Source: Acidimicrobiales bacterium (GTDB lineage Bacteria; Actinomycetota; Acidimicrobiia; Acidimicrobiales; Bog-793). Taken from it: DNA of 64,000 nt. The first letter of the stretch is position 1; each line of letters opens with the position of its first letter. The notes beneath the pieces are model-generated. The model was not told the DNA's origin. It did not search any database and saw only the letters and a list, made by a program, of their open reading frames with translations. Below, one piece after another: positions 51,330 through 64,000 of the stretch. The position numbers and the translations under genes were made by a program. The DNA is taken from the NCBI GenBank assembly GCA_035294085.1, contig DATGLP010000025.1, forward strand, positions 1-64,000, written 5' to 3'.

Positions 51330-51782
51330 TCAGCTCCCCGCCTCGAGGAGGCGCGCGGCGGCCTCGACGGCGAGCTCGTAGCCGAGGCCGCCGAAGCCCG
51401 CCACCGTCCCGCTCGCCACCGGCGCGAGGACGGAGCGCCGGCGCCAGGGCTCGCGCGCGTCGGGGTTCGACAGGTGCAGCTCGACGACCGGCCCGGGGAA
51501 CGAGGCGAGGGCGTCGGCGAGGGACCAGCCGTAGTGGGTGAGGGCGCCCGCGTTGACGACGATCGCCGCGACCCGGGCGCGCGCCGCGTGCACCGCGGCG
51601 ACGAGGTCCGCCTCCGCGTCGCGCTGCACGTGCTCGAGGACGAGCCCGCAGCGCTCGGCGGCGCGCGCGGCGCGCTCGACGTGCTCGGCGAGCGTCGCTG
51701 CACCGTAGATGTGGGGCTGGCGCTCCCCGAGCAGCGCGAGGTTCGGCCCCGACAGCAGCAGCACCACCGGCGAGCCGGTCAC
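51330..51782 (-). CDS. aroQ: 3-dehydroquinate dehydratase, type II
   Basis: 150-aa dodecameric enzyme, third shikimate step. LLSGPNLALLGERQPHIYG (catalytic Arg/Tyr), VNAGALTHYGWSLADAL, and HLSNPDAREPWRRRSVLAPVASG are the type II motifs. In most relatives the second motif reads NPGAYTHTS; here it is NAGALTHYG, keeping the Asn and His. GTG overlaps the aroB stop (GTGA). Confidence 0.93.
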   Translation of the reverse strand: MTGSPVVLLLSGPNLALLGERQPHIYGAATLAEHVERAARAAERCGLVLEHVQRDAEADLVAAVHAARARVAAIVVNAGALTHYGWSLADALASFPGPVVELHLSNPDAREPWRRRSVLAPVASGTVAGFGGLGYELAVEAAARLLEAGS

Positions 51783-53236
51783 GGCCCCGTCCTCCTCGCG
51801 CCCGACGCGGCGCTGCGCTCCAGCAGCTCGACGACGAGCTCGGCCGGCACGCCGTGGACCGGCTCGACGCCGTCGGGCCCGTCGAGGACGAAGGTGAGGC
51901 CCTCGCCACGCGCCTTCTTGTCCCGGGCCATGAACTCGACGAGCGCACCCGCGTCCAGGCCGGCGGGCAGCTCGCTCGGCAGCCCGTAGGCGGCGAGGAC
52001 CTCGAGGTGGCGGGCGACCCGCTCGGGCGGGATCCGACCGAGGCGCTCGGCGAGGCGGGCGGCGAACGCGACGCCGAGCGCGACCGCCTCCCCGTGGCGC
52101 AGGGGGGCGTCGGGCCCCTCGCCGGCCAGGCCGGCCGCCTCGAGGGCGTGCGCGAGGGTGTGGCCGTAGTTGAGCGCCATGCGGGGTCCTGCCTCCCGCT
52201 CGTCGGCGGCGACGACCGACGCCTTCAGCTCGACGCAGCGCGCCACCTGGTCGACGAGGGGCAGCCGCTCGAGCCCCTCCGCGCCGAGGAAGGCGTACTT
52301 CGCCACCTCGCCGAGGCCGCTGCGCCACTCGCGCTCGGGGAGGCTCGCCAGCAGGTCCGTGTCGCACAGCACGGCCGAAGGCTGCCAGAAGGCGCCGACG
52401 AGGTTCTTGCCCTCCGGTAGGTTCACCCCGGTCTTGCCCCCGATCGCGGCGTCGACCTGGGCGAGGAGGGTCGTCGCGACGTTGACGAGCGCGACGCCGC
52501 GCAGGTAGCAGGCGGCGGCGAAGCCCGCCGTGTCGCAGACCACTCCCCCGCCGAGGGCGACGACGGCGTCGCTGCGCCGCAGGCCGGCGCGAGCGAAGGC
52601 GCGGCACAGCTCCTCGATCGTGCGGAGCGACTTCGCACGCTCGCCGGTGCCGATCTCGACGACCGCGGTCTGCCGCCCGGTCTCGACGTCGCGGGGGACC
52701 CCGGCCTGCGTGACGAGCGCGACGTGCCGGGCGCCGGCGGGGAGCACCTCGGGGAGCAGGGCCCGCGCCCCGGGCCCGACGACCACCTCGTAGCCGCGCT
52801 CGCGAAGCGGGAGGACGATCCGCCGCCGCAGGGCGCTCACGATCTCGGCGACGACCTCGGACGGCGGGCGACGGCCGACGTCGACGGCGAGCGCCGGTGT
52901 GCCGGCGCCCTCCCGGCCGCCGGAGGGCTCGGGCGGCGAGCCGAGGTGGACGACCGCCCCGGCCTCGGCGAGCGCGTCCTGGCCGGCCGCGCCTTCGACG
53001 AGGCTGCGCGGCGCGGCGATCACCGCCGGCTCGGCGCGCGCCGCCGCGGCGCGAAGCGCCGCCAGCTCGGCGGCGCCGGACGCTTCGCGCCCGTCCCCCG
53101 AGCCCGCCGGGAGGCGCGGGGCCGCGCCGATCTCGAGGAACGGCCGGCGCAGCGCCGTGGCGAGGAGGCGCCCGACGCCCGCCTCGCCGGACGCGGCCGC
53201 CCCGACGAGGACGACGTGCTCCGGCCTGCTCCTCAC
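51779..53236 (-). CDS. aroB: 3-dehydroquinate synthase with N-terminal degenerate shikimate-kinase domain
   Basis: 485 aa, about 125 more than usual AroB. Residues ~130-485 are a full synthase: NAD motif ALGGGVVCDTAGFAAACYLRG, GGKTGVNLPEGKN, zinc ligands in GLGEVAKYA, NYGHTLAHALE and LRHGEAVALG. Residues 1-~125 resemble AroK: VVLVGAAASGEAGVGRLLA aligns without gaps with the P-loop of the intact AroK at 56.6-57.1 kb, but Lys is Glu and the next Thr is Ala, so it should not bind ATP. The GTG at 53236 overlaps the aroC stop (GTGA). Confidence 0.92.
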   Translation of the reverse strand: MRSRPEHVVLVGAAASGEAGVGRLLATALRRPFLEIGAAPRLPAGSGDGREASGAAELAALRAAAARAEPAVIAAPRSLVEGAAGQDALAEAGAVVHLGSPPEPSGGREGAGTPALAVDVGRRPPSEVVAEIVSALRRRIVLPLRERGYEVVVGPGARALLPEVLPAGARHVALVTQAGVPRDVETGRQTAVVEIGTGERAKSLRTIEELCRAFARAGLRRSDAVVALGGGVVCDTAGFAAACYLRGVALVNVATTLLAQVDAAIGGKTGVNLPEGKNLVGAFWQPSAVLCDTDLLASLPEREWRSGLGEVAKYAFLGAEGLERLPLVDQVARCVELKASVVAADEREAGPRMALNYGHTLAHALEAAGLAGEGPDAPLRHGEAVALGVAFAARLAERLGRIPPERVARHLEVLAAYGLPSELPAGLDAGALVEFMARDKKARGEGLTFVLDGPDGVEPVHGVPAELVVELLERSAASGARRTGP

Positions 53237-54530: not shown

Positions 54531-55178
54531 CTACTTCTTGGCCGGCTGGAAGTAGGGGTTCGTCCCCTGCGCGTGCGCCGTCACGTCGACGACGTCGGTG
54601 ATCTCGGGGACGGCCTCGCGGATCGCGACGGCGATGCCCTGGCTGAGCGTCACCTGCGCGAGGCCGCAGCCCTGGCACCCGCCGGACAGGCGCAGGTAGG
54701 CGACGCCACCCTCGTCGACGGCGACGAGATCGGCGCGCCCGCCGTGCATCGCGATGCGGGGGTTGACCTCCTCGTCGAGCACCGCGAGCACGGCGCGCTC
54801 GAGGGGGCTCGACAGGTCGCTCTCGGGCACCTCGACGCTGCCCGGAGCCGGCGGCGGCGTGTTCGGGTTGACCATGACGAGGCCGCCCTCGCCCACGTCG
54901 AGCGTGGCCCCCCGCAGCTTGTCGACCGAGCCGGCGGCGATGACGACCGGGACGTCGTCGTGGTGCTGGACGACGTCGGCCGAGGTCGCGTCGGCGAGCG
55001 CCTCGAACCACATCTCGTAGGTGTACGAGCCGGAGGAAACCCCGCTCACCTCGACGAACAGGGCGAGGCGCTCGGGGTCCGCCTCCCCGGCGCGCGCCTC
55101 GGCGACGAGGGCGCGCGCCGCCGGCGTGACGTGCAGTACCGGGGTCGGCGCCCGCTCGCCCGTCGTGTCGTTGGCCAC
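54531..55178 (-). CDS. NfuA-like Fe-S carrier protein
   Basis: 215-aa protein with an A-type-carrier-like N-domain (residues ~12-110) lacking its cysteines, and a C-terminal NifU domain (AVLAVLDEEVNPRIAMHGG ... SGGCQGCGLAQVTLSQG) whose CxxC binds a 4Fe-4S cluster between two monomers. It probably delivers clusters to target enzymes; a radical SAM gene lies 2 kb away. GTG at 55178 follows TAACAT by six bases (leaderless). Confidence 0.88.
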   Translation of the reverse strand: MANDTTGERAPTPVLHVTPAARALVAEARAGEADPERLALFVEVSGVSSGSYTYEMWFEALADATSADVVQHHDDVPVVIAAGSVDKLRGATLDVGEGGLVMVNPNTPPPAPGSVEVPESDLSSPLERAVLAVLDEEVNPRIAMHGGRADLVAVDEGGVAYLRLSGGCQGCGLAQVTLSQGIAVAIREAVPEITDVVDVTAHAQGTNPYFQPAKK

Positions 55179-55242: not shown

Positions 55243-56538
55243 ATGGCGCGCGTCCTCCTCGTCGTCCCGAGCGCCACCTACCGCGCCGCGGCCTTCCTCG
55301 CCGCCGCGGCCCGCCTCGGGACCGAGGTCGTGATCGCCTCCGACCAGCCGCAGGCGCTCGCCGAGGCGATGAGCGACCGCTTCCTCGAGGTCGACCTCGC
55401 GCGGCCCGAGGCCGCCGCGGCGGCGATCTGCGAGCTCGCCCGGCGCCGCCCCCTCGACGCCGTCGTCGCGGTCGACGACCAGGGCGCCGTCCCGGCGGCG
55501 CTCGCCGCAGCGCGCCTCGGCCTGCGGGCGAGCCCCGCCGAGGCGGTGGCGCGCACGCGCGACAAGGCGGCGATGCGCCGCGCCTTCGAGCGAGCCGGCG
55601 TCGCGCAGCCTCGCTTCCGGGTCGCCGGTCGCGACGACGCGGCCCTCGCGGCGGCCGGCGAGGCGCTCGGCTACCCGGTCGTCGTCAAACCGGTCTCCCT
55701 CGCCGGCAGTCGCGGCGTGATCCGCGCCGACGACGAGCGAGCGCTGCGAGCCGCGGGGGCGCGCCTTCGCGCCATCCTCGCCGAGGCCGGCGCACCCGAC
55801 GAGCCCGTCCTCGTCGAGTCCTACGTCCCCGGCGGCGAGGTGGCCCTCGAGGGGCTCCTCCTCGACGGCAGGCTCGAGGTGCTCGCCGTCTTCGACAAGC
55901 CCGACCCGCTCGAGGGCCCCTACTTCGCCGAGACGCTCTACGTCACGCCGTCGCGCCTCGCGCCCGAGCTCGTGGGCGCGCTCGGCGCCCTCGCCGGGCG
56001 CGCCTGCGCGGCCCTCGGCCTCAGCGACGGGCCGGTGCACGCCGAGCTCCGCCTCGCCGGCGAGGAGCGCGACCACCCCGTCGTGCTCGAGGTCGCGGCC
56101 CGCACGATCGGCGGACGCTGCTCGGGCGCCCTCGACTTCGGCGGCACGAGCCTCGAGGAGCTCGTCCTCCTGGCCGCCCTGTCTCGTCAGGACCTCGTCC
56201 GCCAGCGGGGCGCGCTCCGCCCCGCCGCGGTCCTCATGCTCCCGGTCGCGCGCACCGGCGTCCTCCGGGCGGTGCACGGAGTCGACGACGCGCTCGCGCT
56301 CGAGGGGGTAACCGGCTGCGAGATCACCGTGCCGATCGGCCAGCGCGTCCGGGCGCTGCCCGAGGCCGACCGGTACCTCGGCTTCCTCTTCGCCGAGGGC
56401 GCCACGCCCGCCGCGGCCGAGGCCGCGGCGCGAGCCGGCTACGCCCGTCTCGGGATCGAGATCGACCCCGAGCGGGCGGCCCGCCGGCTGGCGCCGGCAG
56501 GGCGCGCCCCGTGCCGGCGCGCCGGGGCGGGCACCTGA
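55243..56538 (+). CDS. ATP-grasp carboxylate-amine ligase-like protein
   Basis: 431-aa protein of the ATP-grasp superfamily. N-terminal Rossmann-like part (ARVLLVVPSATYRAAAFLAAAARLG), central ATP site with YPVVVKPVSLAGSRGVIRA and VLVESYVPGGEVALEG, Mg ligands in VHAELRLAG ... HPVVLEVAARTIGG. The family joins a carboxylate to an amine or thiol through an acyl phosphate; the substrates here are unknown, and similar proteins occur in both amino-acid ligase and natural-product settings. ATG with GGAG four bases upstream. Followed after 20 bases by the opposing aroK. Confidence 0.85.
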   Translation: MARVLLVVPSATYRAAAFLAAAARLGTEVVIASDQPQALAEAMSDRFLEVDLARPEAAAAAICELARRRPLDAVVAVDDQGAVPAALAAARLGLRASPAEAVARTRDKAAMRRAFERAGVAQPRFRVAGRDDAALAAAGEALGYPVVVKPVSLAGSRGVIRADDERALRAAGARLRAILAEAGAPDEPVLVESYVPGGEVALEGLLLDGRLEVLAVFDKPDPLEGPYFAETLYVTPSRLAPELVGALGALAGRACAALGLSDGPVHAELRLAGEERDHPVVLEVAARTIGGRCSGALDFGGTSLEELVLLAALSRQDLVRQRGALRPAAVLMLPVARTGVLRAVHGVDDALALEGVTGCEITVPIGQRVRALPEADRYLGFLFAEGATPAAAEAAARAGYARLGIEIDPERAARRLAPAGRAPCRRAGAGT

Positions 56539-56558: not shown

Positions 56559-57125
56559 TCAGGCCGGCCCCGCCGGTCCGCGAGCGGTGGGTCGGGTGGC
56601 GAGCGCCGCGAGGACGCGCTCGAGCGTCTGCGCGACACCCGGGTAGCAGACCTCGACGCGCACGTGGGCGAGCGCGTAGGTGGCGCTGCGGCGCCGGTAG
56701 AGGGCGCGGACCTCGGCCTCGCTCCGCCCCGCGAGGAGCGGCCGGCCGGCAGCGAGGCCGGCGAGGGCGCCGGCGAGGTCCTCGAAGGCGACGTCGAGGT
56801 GCACGACGAGGGCGCGCTCGAGCAGGAGCGCCCGGCTCCCCGGGTCCTCGAACGCCCCGCCGCCCAGGGCGACGACGACCGGGGGACGGCGCTCGACGAC
56901 CTCGGCGACGACCGCCGCCTCCTCGGCGCGGAAGCGGCGCTCCTCCCCGGCCGCGAACAGGCTCGGGATCGTGCGGCCGAGGCGGCGGGCGACCTCGGCG
57001 TCGGTGTCGACGAAGCCGCGCCCGAGACGACCCGCGAGGAGCCGACCGACGGTCGTCTTCCCGCTGCCCATGAAGCCGACGAGGGCGATCGGCACGTCCT
57101 CGAGCCCGAGGGGCTGGCTCGCCAC
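56559..57125 (-). CDS. aroK: Shikimate kinase
   Basis: 188-aa kinase phosphorylating shikimate. Intact P-loop GFMGSGKT at residues 17-24, substrate Asp in FVDTDAEVARRLGR, Arg in FAAGEERRFRAEE, VALGGGAF and the LID Arg in RPLLAGRSEAEVRALYRRR. It stands alone, away from the aroC-aroB-aroQ operon, where a degenerate copy is fused to AroB. GTG at 57125 follows TAGCAT by seven bases. Confidence 0.95.
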   Translation of the reverse strand: MASQPLGLEDVPIALVGFMGSGKTTVGRLLAGRLGRGFVDTDAEVARRLGRTIPSLFAAGEERRFRAEEAAVVAEVVERRPPVVVALGGGAFEDPGSRALLLERALVVHLDVAFEDLAGALAGLAAGRPLLAGRSEAEVRALYRRRSATYALAHVRVEVCYPGVAQTLERVLAALATRPTARGPAGPA

Positions 57126-57182: not shown

Positions 57183-58610
57183 GTGCGCGTCCTCCTCCTC
57201 TCCACCTACGAGCTCGGCGCCCAGCCGCTCGGGATCGCCGGCCCGGCGGCGGCGCTCGCCGCGGCGGGCCACGAGGTGCGCACCTGCGACCTCGCCGTCG
57301 AGCCCTGGCCGACCGAGCACGTCGCCTGGGCCGAGGCGGTCGCCTGCTCGGTGCCGATGCACACGGCGCTGCGGCTCGGCCGGGCCGCGATCGAGCGCCT
57401 GCGGCGCGAGCGCCCTCGCCTGCCCGTCGCCTTCCACGGTCTGTACGCGCCGGCAGCCGTGCACGCCGGCCTGCTCGAGGACGGCGACGTCGCGCTCGGC
57501 GGCGAGGTGGACGGGGGTCTCGTCGCCTGGCTCGACGCGCTGGCGCGCGGCACGAAGCCGCCCGGTGGCCTCGTGCTCGAGCTCGGGCGCCCTCGCCCGC
57601 CGCTCGCCGGGCCGCCCCCGGCGCGCGCCGGCCTGCCCGGTCTCGCCTCCTACGCCGTGCTCGTCGACGGCGGCGAACGCCGCCTGGCCGCGAGCGTCGA
57701 GGCGAGCCGCGGCTGCAACCACCGCTGCCGGCACTGCCCCGTCCCCGTCGTCTACGGCGGCCGCTCGCGTGCCCTCGCGCTCGACCGGGTCCTCGCCGAC
57801 GTCGAGGCCGTGGTCGCCGCGGGCGCCGGGCACCTGCGCTTCGCCGACCCCGACTTCCTCAACCGGCCGGCGCACGCCCTCGCCGTCGCTCGCGCCGTCC
57901 ACGAGCGCTGGCCCGACCTCGGCTTCGACATCACGGCGAAGGTGAGCCACCTCCTCGAGCAGCCCGAGGCGCTCGCCGAGCTCGTCTCCCTCGGGCTGCG
58001 CTTCGTGATCTCGGCCTTCGAGTCGACGAGCGAGCGCGTGCTCGCGCGCCTGCACAAGGGGCACCGGCCGGCCGACCTCGGCACGGCCGTCGCCCTGGCG
58101 CGCTCGCTCGGCGTCGAGATCCGTCCGTCGCTCCTCCCCTTCACGCCGTGGACGACGCGCGACGACGTCGTCGACCTGTTCGACTTCGTCGCCGCCCACG
58201 ACCTCGTGCCGAACGTCGACCCGGTCCAGCTCGCGATCCGCCTCCTGCTCCCGCCGGGCTCGCTCCTGCTCGAGGACCCCGACCCCGAGCTCGCCGCCTG
58301 CCTGCAGGGGTTCGAGCCCGACGCCCTCGGGGTGCGCTGGCGCTCGGCGGACCCGCTGCTCGACGAGCTCCAGGCGGCGCTGTCGGCGCGAGCCGAGGAG
58401 GCGGGGGCGCGTGGCGAGGCTGCAGAGGACGCCTACGCGGCGCTGCGGTGCCTCGCCTTCGAGACGCTCGGGCGGAAGGACCCGGGGCCGCCGCCGCTCG
58501 CGGTGGCGCCGGGGCCCCCCGCCGAGCGCCGGCCGCGGCTCACCGAGGCGTGGTTCTGCTGCGCCGAGCCGACGAGCGCCCAGCTCGCCCCGCTCGAGGC
58601 ACCCCGGTAG
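57183..58610 (+). CDS. Radical SAM protein with C-terminal CCAEP tail
   Basis: 475-aa radical SAM enzyme. An N-terminal B12-binding-like Rossmann domain (VRVLLLSTYELGAQPLGIAGPAAALAAAGHEV) is followed by the SAM/4Fe-4S motif CNHRCRHC (~residue 179), then GHLRFADPDFLN and further barrel elements. The C-terminus carries TEAWFCCAEPT, the tail after which I recall a family being named (CUAEP/CCAEP-tail radical SAM, some members with selenocysteine). Here both tail cysteines are TGC (58557-58562). Product unknown. Its TAG overlaps the next GTG, so the cysteine-rich partner is co-translated. Confidence 0.85.
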   Translation: MRVLLLSTYELGAQPLGIAGPAAALAAAGHEVRTCDLAVEPWPTEHVAWAEAVACSVPMHTALRLGRAAIERLRRERPRLPVAFHGLYAPAAVHAGLLEDGDVALGGEVDGGLVAWLDALARGTKPPGGLVLELGRPRPPLAGPPPARAGLPGLASYAVLVDGGERRLAASVEASRGCNHRCRHCPVPVVYGGRSRALALDRVLADVEAVVAAGAGHLRFADPDFLNRPAHALAVARAVHERWPDLGFDITAKVSHLLEQPEALAELVSLGLRFVISAFESTSERVLARLHKGHRPADLGTAVALARSLGVEIRPSLLPFTPWTTRDDVVDLFDFVAAHDLVPNVDPVQLAIRLLLPPGSLLLEDPDPELAACLQGFEPDALGVRWRSADPLLDELQAALSARAEEAGARGEAAEDAYAALRCLAFETLGRKDPGPPPLAVAPGPPAERRPRLTEAWFCCAEPTSAQLAPLEAPR

Positions 58611-59362
58611 TGCCCCGCGCCGTGCCGGCCGAGGTCCGCGAGTGGGCGAGCTTCGAGGACCCCGAGGAGGACCGCACCTGGCTCGTCGACGTCACCTTCC
58701 TCGCGAGCCCCTGGCGCTGCATCTACGGCGAGGGCTGCCAGGGAGTGCTCGGCGCCCCCGCGTCCGAGCGCGCCGAGGGCTGCTGCAGCTACGGCGCGCA
58801 CTTCTCCGGTGCCGAGGACCTCGCCCGGGTGGAGGCGGCCGCCCAGCGCCTCACGGCCCAGCAGTGGCAGCTGCGCAGCGTCGGCCGGCGCCGTGGCGTC
58901 GCGAGGCGCCGCGGGGCGAACGTGGCGACGCGCCTCGTCGGCGGCGCCTGCATCTTCTTGAACCGGCCCGGCTTTCCGGGCGGACCGGGCTGCGCCCTGC
59001 ACCGTGGGGCGATCGAGGCGGGCCGGCACCCCCTCGAGTACAAGCCGGACGTGTGCTGGCAGCTGCCGCTGCGACGGGAGGACGCCGTCGAAGCCTCGGG
59101 CCACGTCGTCTCCCGCCTCGGCCAGTGGGAGCGGCGCCACTGGGGTCCTGCGGGCGCCGGCTTCCACTGGTGGTGCTCGGAGGATCCCGCCGCCTACAGC
59201 GCCTCGAGCCCCGTCTACCAGCGCCTCGCCCCCGAGCTCACGGCCCTCGTCGGCGCCCCCGTCTACCGCCTCATCGCCGCCTACCTCGACGCGCGCCGCT
59301 CCGCGGGCTCGGTGCCGCTGCCCCACCCGGTACTTCGGCGACGCGCCCGCCGGCGCGCCTAG
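58610..59362 (+). CDS. Cysteine-rich protein, partner of the radical SAM enzyme
   Basis: 250-aa soluble protein with clustered cysteines: WRCIYGEGCQG, GCCSYGAHF, GGACIFLNRPGFPGGPGCALHRGA, KPDVCWQLPL and FHWWCSEDP. The pattern resembles YkgJ/DUF3109-type metal- or Fe-S-binding proteins, though I cannot name the family for sure. The GTG shares its G with the stop of the radical SAM gene (TAGTG), a tight coupling that suggests a shared pathway or complex. Convergent with the next small gene (4-base overlap). Confidence 0.75.
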   Translation: MPRAVPAEVREWASFEDPEEDRTWLVDVTFLASPWRCIYGEGCQGVLGAPASERAEGCCSYGAHFSGAEDLARVEAAAQRLTAQQWQLRSVGRRRGVARRRGANVATRLVGGACIFLNRPGFPGGPGCALHRGAIEAGRHPLEYKPDVCWQLPLRREDAVEASGHVVSRLGQWERRHWGPAGAGFHWWCSEDPAAYSASSPVYQRLAPELTALVGAPVYRLIAAYLDARRSAGSVPLPHPVLRRRARRRA

Positions 59363-59550
59363 CCGATGCGGTCGTCGCGCTCGAGCTCCTCGAGCTCCTC
59401 GGCCTCGTCGCCCAGCTGCTCGTAGAGGCACCAGCTCGCGTGGCGCTCCTCCGGCTCGGCGCCGCACTCGGGGCACGGCTCGGGCGTGACCTCGACCGCC
59501 CGCTTCAGGCTGCGCGCCTCCTCGAAGCGTCGGTGCCGTCCCTTCTTCAC
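59359..59550 (-). CDS. Small protein with CxxC motif
   Basis: 63-aa protein of unknown function: basic N-terminus (VKKGRHRRFEEARSLKRAVE), then PCPECGAEPEERHASWC, which could hold half or one small zinc site, and an acidic C-terminus (DEAEELEELERDD). The GTG at 59550 has GGGGAG six bases upstream; an in-frame ATG at 59601 would give 80 aa without a ribosome binding site. Confidence 0.6.
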   Translation of the reverse strand: MKKGRHRRFEEARSLKRAVEVTPEPCPECGAEPEERHASWCLYEQLGDEAEELEELERDDRIG

Positions 59551-59703
59551 GAGCCGCTCCCCAGTGTGCGCACGAGAGGCGCCGCGGGCTTGCGAGGCCA
59601 TCCACCGCTTGCACCCGCCGCCGGCCCTCGCGTCGAGAACTCGCGCCAGCATACCCCTCGGTGCCGCCGTCTCCTGGCGCCTCGCCGGGCCGAGCCGGGC
59701 CGC

Positions 59704-59715: not shown

Positions 59716-59955
59716 GTGGCCGACGGCTTCGACGTCGACGCGATGATCGCCCGCTTCCGGGAACGGGCCGCGGCCGTCCGCCGCCGGGGCCTGCCGCCGG
59801 TCGAGGGGCCCGAGCGCCAGGCGATCCTGCGCCAGATGGAGCTCGACTACCTCGACTTCGCCATCCTCGGCGACGCCGAGGGCAGCCTCGACGACGGGGT
59901 GCTCACCTTGCGCGTCGACCTGCGGCCGAAGGCGGACGAGGGCTCGAGGCACTGA
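59716..59955 (+). CDS. Conserved small protein of unknown function
   Basis: 79-aa acidic/helical protein: VDAMIARFRERAAAVRRRG, then LPPVEGPERQAILRQMELDYLDFAILGDAEGSLDDGVLTLRVDLRP. I recall similar small proteins in other actinobacteria, always unnamed. No membrane segment or cysteines. Leaderless-type promoter. Confidence 0.7.
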   Translation: MADGFDVDAMIARFRERAAAVRRRGLPPVEGPERQAILRQMELDYLDFAILGDAEGSLDDGVLTLRVDLRPKADEGSRH

Positions 59956-63581: not shown

Positions 63582-63669
63582 GCGTCGCCTCAGCGAGGCG
63601 GGCGCCAGGCGAGGAGGGCTCGTGGATCCACGACGCTGGCAGGCGCTGTCGCGTCGCCTCAGCGAGGCG
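63582..63669. repeat. 19-bp direct repeat around the DUF169 gene start
   Basis: GCGTCGCCTCAGCGAGGCG occurs at 63582-63600 and again at 63651-63669, 69 bases apart; each holds the inverted repeat CGCCTC AGC GAGGCG. The first copy is in the leader of the DUF169 gene, the second in its coding region (residues 10-16). Confidence 0.7.
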
Positions 63670-64000
63670 CTGCACCTGCGGAGGGAGCCGGTCGCGATCG
63701 CCTTCTCGCAGCGGCGCCCGGACGGCCTGCCCGCCTTCTCGGCGTTCGGCCGCGCCGGGGACGACGGCGCCGGGCACGAGGCCGCCGTCGCGAGCTGCGT
63801 CTTCTGGGTCCAGGGCGAGGGCCGGGCCTTCGCCACCGTGCCTGACGACCACGGCTGCAGCATCGGCCGCGTCACCCACGGTCTCGCCGGGCCCGAGGAG
63901 GCGGCGGGTGCCGACGACGTGGCGGCGCTCGAGCGGGCGGGCTGGCTCGACCCCTGCGCCGTGAGCAGCCTCCCGGCGGTCTCGGTGCGACCCGGCGCGA
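63622..64000 (+). CDS. DUF169-family protein, cut by the window end
   Basis: First ~126 residues of a gene that runs off the window. LRREPVAIAFSQRRPDG, ASCVFWVQGEG and PDDHGCSIGRVTHGL are the DUF169 pattern, with Cys residues at the usual places; the function of the family is unknown. GTG at 63622 behind GAGGAGG; a TAGCCT box at 63565-63570 gives a ~45-base leader. Divergent from tyrS. Confidence 0.85.
   Translation, partial: MDPRRWQALSRRLSEALHLRREPVAIAFSQRRPDGLPAFSAFGRAGDDGAGHEAAVASCVFWVQGEGRAFATVPDDHGCSIGRVTHGLAGPEEAAGADDVAALERAGWLDPCAVSSLPAVSVRPGA

Follow-up and report, generated by a model that had tools for sequence, protein, structure and literature searches.

The 64,000-nucleotide stretch of Acidimicrobiales DNA analyzed here (the window) encodes a radical SAM enzyme that ends in an FCCAEP tail (Table 1). 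This locus raises the question of what such a tailed enzyme makes and which of its neighbors work with it. The first-pass annotation had paired the tail with the Cys-rich protein encoded directly downstream and had mentioned an ATP-grasp ligase and an NfuA-like carrier in passing.

Table 1. Positions of the radical SAM gene, its motifs, and its neighbors in the window
Feature	Position	Strand	Remark
Radical SAM enzyme, 475 aa, B12-binding-like N-domain, CCAEP tail	57183..58610	+	ORF with GTG start
CxxxCxxC radical SAM cluster motif, C178/C182/C185	57714..57737	+	Invariant in 105 relatives
FCCAEP tail, residues 458–463	58554..58571	+	Second Cys codon (58560–58562) is UGA/Sec in many relatives
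Cys-rich protein, 250 aa, 8 invariant Cys, lineage neighbor	58610..59362	+	TAGTG overlap with enzyme gene
ATP-grasp ligase, LAL_C2 domain (L-amino-acid ligase type), conserved partner	55243..56538	+	
NfuA-like Fe–S carrier, divergent from ATP-grasp gene, conserved neighbor	54531..55178	-	
Stand-alone aroK between ATP-grasp and radical SAM genes, outside the module	56559..57125	-	
DUF169 (PF02596) protein, recurrent accessory neighbor in relatives	63622..64000, on to contig 64347	+	

The tailed enzyme and its family

Coordinates and open reading frames confirmed that the FCCAEP-tailed gene shares one base with the next gene, the TAG stop at 58608–58610 running into the GTG start of the Cys-rich gene. 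The encoded protein ends in ...RPRLTEAWFCCAEPTSAQLAPLEAPR. In a profile search, it matched NF040546 over 467 of 468 positions (E = 3e-147, 490.9 bits). NCBIfam titles this model (rSAM_CUAEP) "CUAEP/CCAEP-tail radical SAM (seleno)protein". The curated cut-off is 500 bits, and the window enzyme fell short of it by nine bits. Close relatives from the same clade also scored 410–490 bits, with the cut-off dividing the clade, and in the tree the window enzyme was nested among sequences scoring above it. The enzyme carries the C(C/U)AEP tail of the family, its CxxxCxxC motif, and a full-length alignment. Judged on score and tree together, it is a homologue nested within the NF040546 family tree and no formal member. 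The two have the full-length match, the tail motif, and the Cys/Sec variation in common; the NCBIfam title is silent on function, partner ligase, and SECIS.

The predicted fold (pLDDT 95.7 overall, 85–91 for the tail) was of the type of the cobalamin-type radical SAM enzymes. It matched AprD4 (Z 26.4, rmsd 3.9, 405 aligned), MgmA (Z 24.9, rmsd 3.2, 350 aligned), OxsB (Z 24.2, rmsd 3.7, 415 aligned), and TsrM (Z 23.1, rmsd 4.1, 401 aligned). The model combines a B12-binding domain fold with a radical SAM barrel, as in class B radical SAM enzymes. Cobalamin use may vary among its structural neighbors. The B12-type N-domain described earlier was thus recovered in the predicted fold, but its Pfam match was weak, at 27.1 bits against a cut-off of 32.1.

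Relatives were collected in two sets. A profile search of 396 Actinomycetota genomes found 24 with the enzyme gene, and peptide patterns applied to named genomes gave 69 loci; one of these patterns was the tail, which biased the second set toward Cys tails. Relatives were present in Actinomycetota, Chloroflexota, Alphaproteobacteria, Acidobacteriota, Nitrospirota, Elusimicrobiota, and Myxococcota, and also in Thermomicrobium. Among 105 aligned relatives, E455, W457, C459, C/U460, and P463 were essentially invariant, and no cysteines were conserved other than the three that ligate the cluster and the two of the tail. Conservation of the tail motif, on which the earlier interpretation leaned, held up as near-invariance across several phyla.

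Partners and bystanders among the neighboring genes

Neighbors were counted at 71 loci for which each flank extended 2.5 kb or more. An ATP-grasp gene lay within 2.6 kb of the enzyme in 55 of these loci and an NfuA-like gene in 50, and the association was seen in Actinomycetota, Chloroflexota, Alphaproteobacteria, and Nitrospirota. The usual order was nfuA leftward, then the ATP-grasp and radical SAM genes rightward, and in most loci the ATP-grasp stop overlapped the enzyme start or lay within a few bases of it. In the window, both genes are present upstream as first described, but the minus-strand aroK parts the ATP-grasp gene from the enzyme. The ATP-grasp subfamily, defined by E under 1e-50, occurred in 23 of 24 enzyme genomes and in 10 of 372 enzyme-free genomes (p = 2e-28 over the 396 Actinomycetota genomes, with their relatedness uncorrected), and the same survey found the NfuA-like gene in all 33 ATP-grasp genomes. 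Co-occurrence extended to genomes in which the genes lie apart (G081, G177, and G221). By this co-occurrence, the two genes once mentioned in passing are the true partners. The conserved unit is well supported as a three-gene module of an NfuA-like carrier, an ATP-grasp amino-acid ligase, and the CCAEP/CUAEP-tail radical SAM enzyme. Eight genomes carried the ATP-grasp gene without the enzyme, mostly with nfuA alongside (two more ended at a contig edge), and therefore the ligase may act first or make a product of its own.

Both module partners stand apart from their named relatives. The window ligase has ATP-grasp_4 and LAL_C2 domains over their cut-offs, as do L-amino-acid ligases such as BacD and DdaF, but scored far below the cut-offs of all named NCBIfam ligase models. 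The NfuA-like protein shares with NfuA (TIGR03341) the two-domain layout and the CxxC of the NifU domain, whereas its 89 bits, with the cut-off at 269, mark a separate subfamily. An auxiliary Fe–S cluster repaired by NfuA, as for LipA, was rejected, there being no further conserved Cys in the enzyme beyond the ligands and the tail pair. An AroK-AroB fusion gene also lies in this part of the window (51779–53236, minus strand). Its AroK half has lost the Walker A motif, reading GAAASGEAGVG where relatives keep GxxGxGK[ST], and the intact separate aroK apparently replaces the lost activity.

The downstream protein was found to contain eight cysteines, not about eleven as first counted, and all eight were invariant in 52 homologues. 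No match to it was found in Pfam, NCBIfam, or PDB. Its model (pLDDT 86) gave no structure match, with a best Foldseek E of 1.4 and a best VIA-align 2 Z of 2.5, an absence that proves nothing. The proposal that tail and Cys-rich protein work as a pair in redox or metal handling draws on the TAGTG overlap in the window, on the many conserved cysteines in both proteins, and on the position of the Cys-rich gene downstream on the same strand within 5 kb in 30 of 45 enzyme-bearing relatives. Wider sampling argued against it. The Cys-rich gene adjoined the enzyme in only 24 of the 71 loci, all confined to one part of Actinomycetota, and was missing beside all Sec forms but one and beside loci of other phyla. 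Rare adjacency had been named in advance as the outcome that would speak against the pairing, and it was largely what we found. Neither survey revealed co-occurrence: the gene was present in 7 of 24 enzyme genomes and 75 of 372 others (p = 0.30; 396 Actinomycetota genomes, relatedness uncorrected), and among 98 close relatives in 39 of 45 with the enzyme and 44 of 53 without it (p = 0.78). Where the enzyme is absent or displaced (L181, L182, and L164), the Cys-rich gene stays in a block with rnd, PNPOx-like, and tyrS genes. In L182, 24 nt separate it from nfuA, which looks like the outcome of an excision of the ATP-grasp and enzyme genes. Since its block persists in genomes that lack the enzyme or have it at another place, the Cys-rich gene is a neighbor by descent, and its product is a bystander that local gene order has placed beside the enzyme. 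Co-occurrence and the gene order of enzyme-free genomes largely ruled out a dedicated partner, leaving the redox or metal-handling pair very improbable. Their overlap makes cotranscription of the two genes in the window quite plausible.

The Cys-rich family itself had homologues in 82 of the 396 Actinomycetota genomes, and in enzyme-free genomes its gene often adjoined an M20-type peptidase gene (L165, L166, L168, L169, and L170). Two small conserved genes follow in the window (59359–59655, minus strand, and 59716–59955, plus strand), one of them zinc-ribbon-like, and they keep their places in more than 20 and more than 30 related loci, respectively. DUF169 was found near the enzyme in 12 of the 71 full-flank loci and in several lineages (e.g., L123, L141, L150, and L154) its gene was adjacent to that for the radical SAM enzyme, the NfuA-like protein, or the ATP-grasp ligase. 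A low-scoring DUF169 subfamily occurred in 8 of 34 enzyme/ligase genomes and in 0 of 34 others. With 8 of 34 genomes only, DUF169 was rejected as an obligatory member of the module and is accessory at most; a literature search for DUF169 with radical SAM found nothing.

Selenocysteine forms of the tail

In 19 loci, about a fifth of the collected relatives, the second Cys codon of the tail was TGA. SelB over the cut-off was present in 16 of 18 Sec genomes versus 5 of 22 Cys genomes, with G080 counted as a Cys form (its tail reads CCAAP before the stop). A SECIS-like hairpin with a 7-bp stem and a 5-base loop was found 12 bases past the UGA in 17 aligned sequences; this count leaves out L136, whose stem is out of the common register, and L135, whose 36 nt are identical to those of L134. 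Of the hairpin cells, 93% were paired, versus 78% for shuffled sequences and no more than 63% after sliding, and five of the seven stem pairs changed on both sides. With SelB nearly always in the genome and a SECIS-like hairpin behind the UGA that shows covariation, the selenocysteine forms of the tail family are genuine by these genomic criteria. The Sec forms and SECIS anticipated in relatives were thus borne out. The window enzyme is itself a Cys form (TGC) and not a selenoprotein, and SelB over the cut-off was not found in its own genome.

At least eight Sec/Cys changes were placed on the tree. This result bears on the role of the tail. The fold matches to AprD4 and its fellows would suit a cobalamin-dependent radical SAM methylase or oxidoreductase that acts on an ordinary organic substrate and has a structural tail. 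We consider such an enzyme improbable, since a purely structural tail would need no Sec, and repeated exchange at one position within invariant surroundings points to a chemical role of the tail.

Two further observations concern these loci. In Thermomicrobium roseum (L184:8935–10371), the annotated protein WP_012643191.1 ends in TESWFC, the next codons being UGA-AEP, and it is probably a selenoprotein shortened by annotation. Five loci (L071, L075, L119, L134, and L135), among them both Cys and Sec forms, have a convergent gene for a DsrE-like small protein directly 3′ of the radical SAM gene.

Relation to ArsL and a candidate pathway

ArsL (NF040542) was the second-best family for the window enzyme, at 227 bits, with the next family at 50. 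The reciprocal search from ArsL gave 361 bits and then 70 bits, so that each family is nearest to the other. Alignment of the two families with hhalign reached 100% probability (E = 2.8e-77, 402 columns, 31% identity) and covered the whole core. By these comparisons, the enzyme family is a sister of ArsL. The alignment stops at residue 406, and the tails match by position and by vicinal cysteines (RCCLKC in ArsL, FCCAEP in the window enzyme), not by alignable sequence. Unlike FCCAEP, RCCLKC stands at the extreme end of the protein, and the ArsL loci examined contain ars genes and no NfuA gene. With 227 bits against the ArsL cut-off of 450, an FCCAEP tail, and no arsenic neighborhood of arsM, arsQ, arsR, and ArsN1, the window enzyme falls outside ArsL proper. 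ArsL was reported to move the 3-amino-3-carboxypropyl group from SAM onto As(III) (PMC8552651).

An ATP-grasp gene was also present in five ArsL loci examined, from Priestia, Alicyclobacillus, and Pantoea, and was not found in the Pseudomonas amygdali ArsL locus. The ligases of these loci are remote homologues of the window ligase (hhalign E = 1e-24, 21% identity). ArsL loci and loci of the window type both having an ATP-grasp gene, the simplest explanation is that both make a SAM-derived amino acid and ligate it. The ArsL loci on plasmids (L185, L186, L206, L207, and L208; RCCLKC tail) include a gene for an ATP-grasp ligase, frequently together with one for a GTP-binding protein. A peptide form of arsinothricin may exist, given the ATP-grasp genes of ArsL loci; a literature search linking ATP-grasp with arsinothricin found nothing.

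For the reaction, with its substrate and product, and for the sequence of the steps and the part played by the NfuA-like protein, we infer the following scheme. The single [4Fe-4S] cluster of the enzyme would cleave SAM, while the vicinal Cys-Cys or Cys-Sec tail would grip a soft, thiophilic substrate, with trivalent arsenic as the leading guess. A SAM-derived fragment, probably 3-amino-3-carboxypropyl, would then be bonded to this substrate, giving an unusual amino acid that the ATP-grasp ligase could couple to another amino acid by a peptide bond. The NfuA-like protein presumably supplies or repairs the Fe–S cluster. An ArsL-like SAM-fragment transferase with a substrate-holding tail, working with an amino-acid ligase, is our best reading, held tentatively and at somewhat short of even confidence.

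The arsenic question was addressed by searching ArsM, ArsR, ArsQ, ArsN1, ArsB, and ArsI from ArsL loci against all neighbors, which returned scattered weak matches only. Membership in an arsenic operon was rejected, as no arsM, arsR, or arsenic transporter gene consistently adjoins the enzyme loci, and arsenic as the substrate is therefore a guess. The missing arsenic genes also fit a different order of events, in which the ATP-grasp ligase takes the first step and its peptide or amide product is then modified by the radical SAM enzyme, the tail being a redox shuttle like the CU tail of thioredoxin reductase and not a metalloid ligand. Vicinal Cys-Sec pairs are well known as redox tails. The nested distribution of the genes, with NfuA in all ATP-grasp genomes, ATP-grasp in nearly all enzyme genomes, and some ATP-grasp genomes free of the enzyme, agrees with this order as well. 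Set against it, ArsL is by a wide margin the closest family of known chemistry and likewise ends in vicinal cysteines, and we regard the redox shuttle as rather unlikely.

Returning to the ArsL-like transferase, the module probably makes an undescribed small molecule. In the literature searched, the product had not been described, as the first-pass annotation had supposed, and a search for CUAEP gave no match; the three-gene module as a whole, with its ArsL-like enzyme, is apparently undescribed so far. It is possible, if on the doubtful side, that a carbon–metalloid bond is formed by an ArsL-type enzyme whose Cys-Sec or Cys-Cys tail is catalytic and that the ligase turns the resulting amino acid into a small peptide, in an undescribed pathway spread over Actinomycetota, Chloroflexota, and other phyla.

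Herein, a family listed by its tail alone gains a partner ligase, a carrier, and a sister family of known chemistry in ArsL. Evidence for genuine selenocysteine forms is added to this tail-named radical SAM family, and a selenoprotein family so far unnamed is given a testable pathway. If the ArsL-like chemistry is true, carbon–metalloid bond formation would be far more widespread than the producers of arsinothricin, and selenocysteine would gain a new role as a substrate ligand in a radical enzyme.
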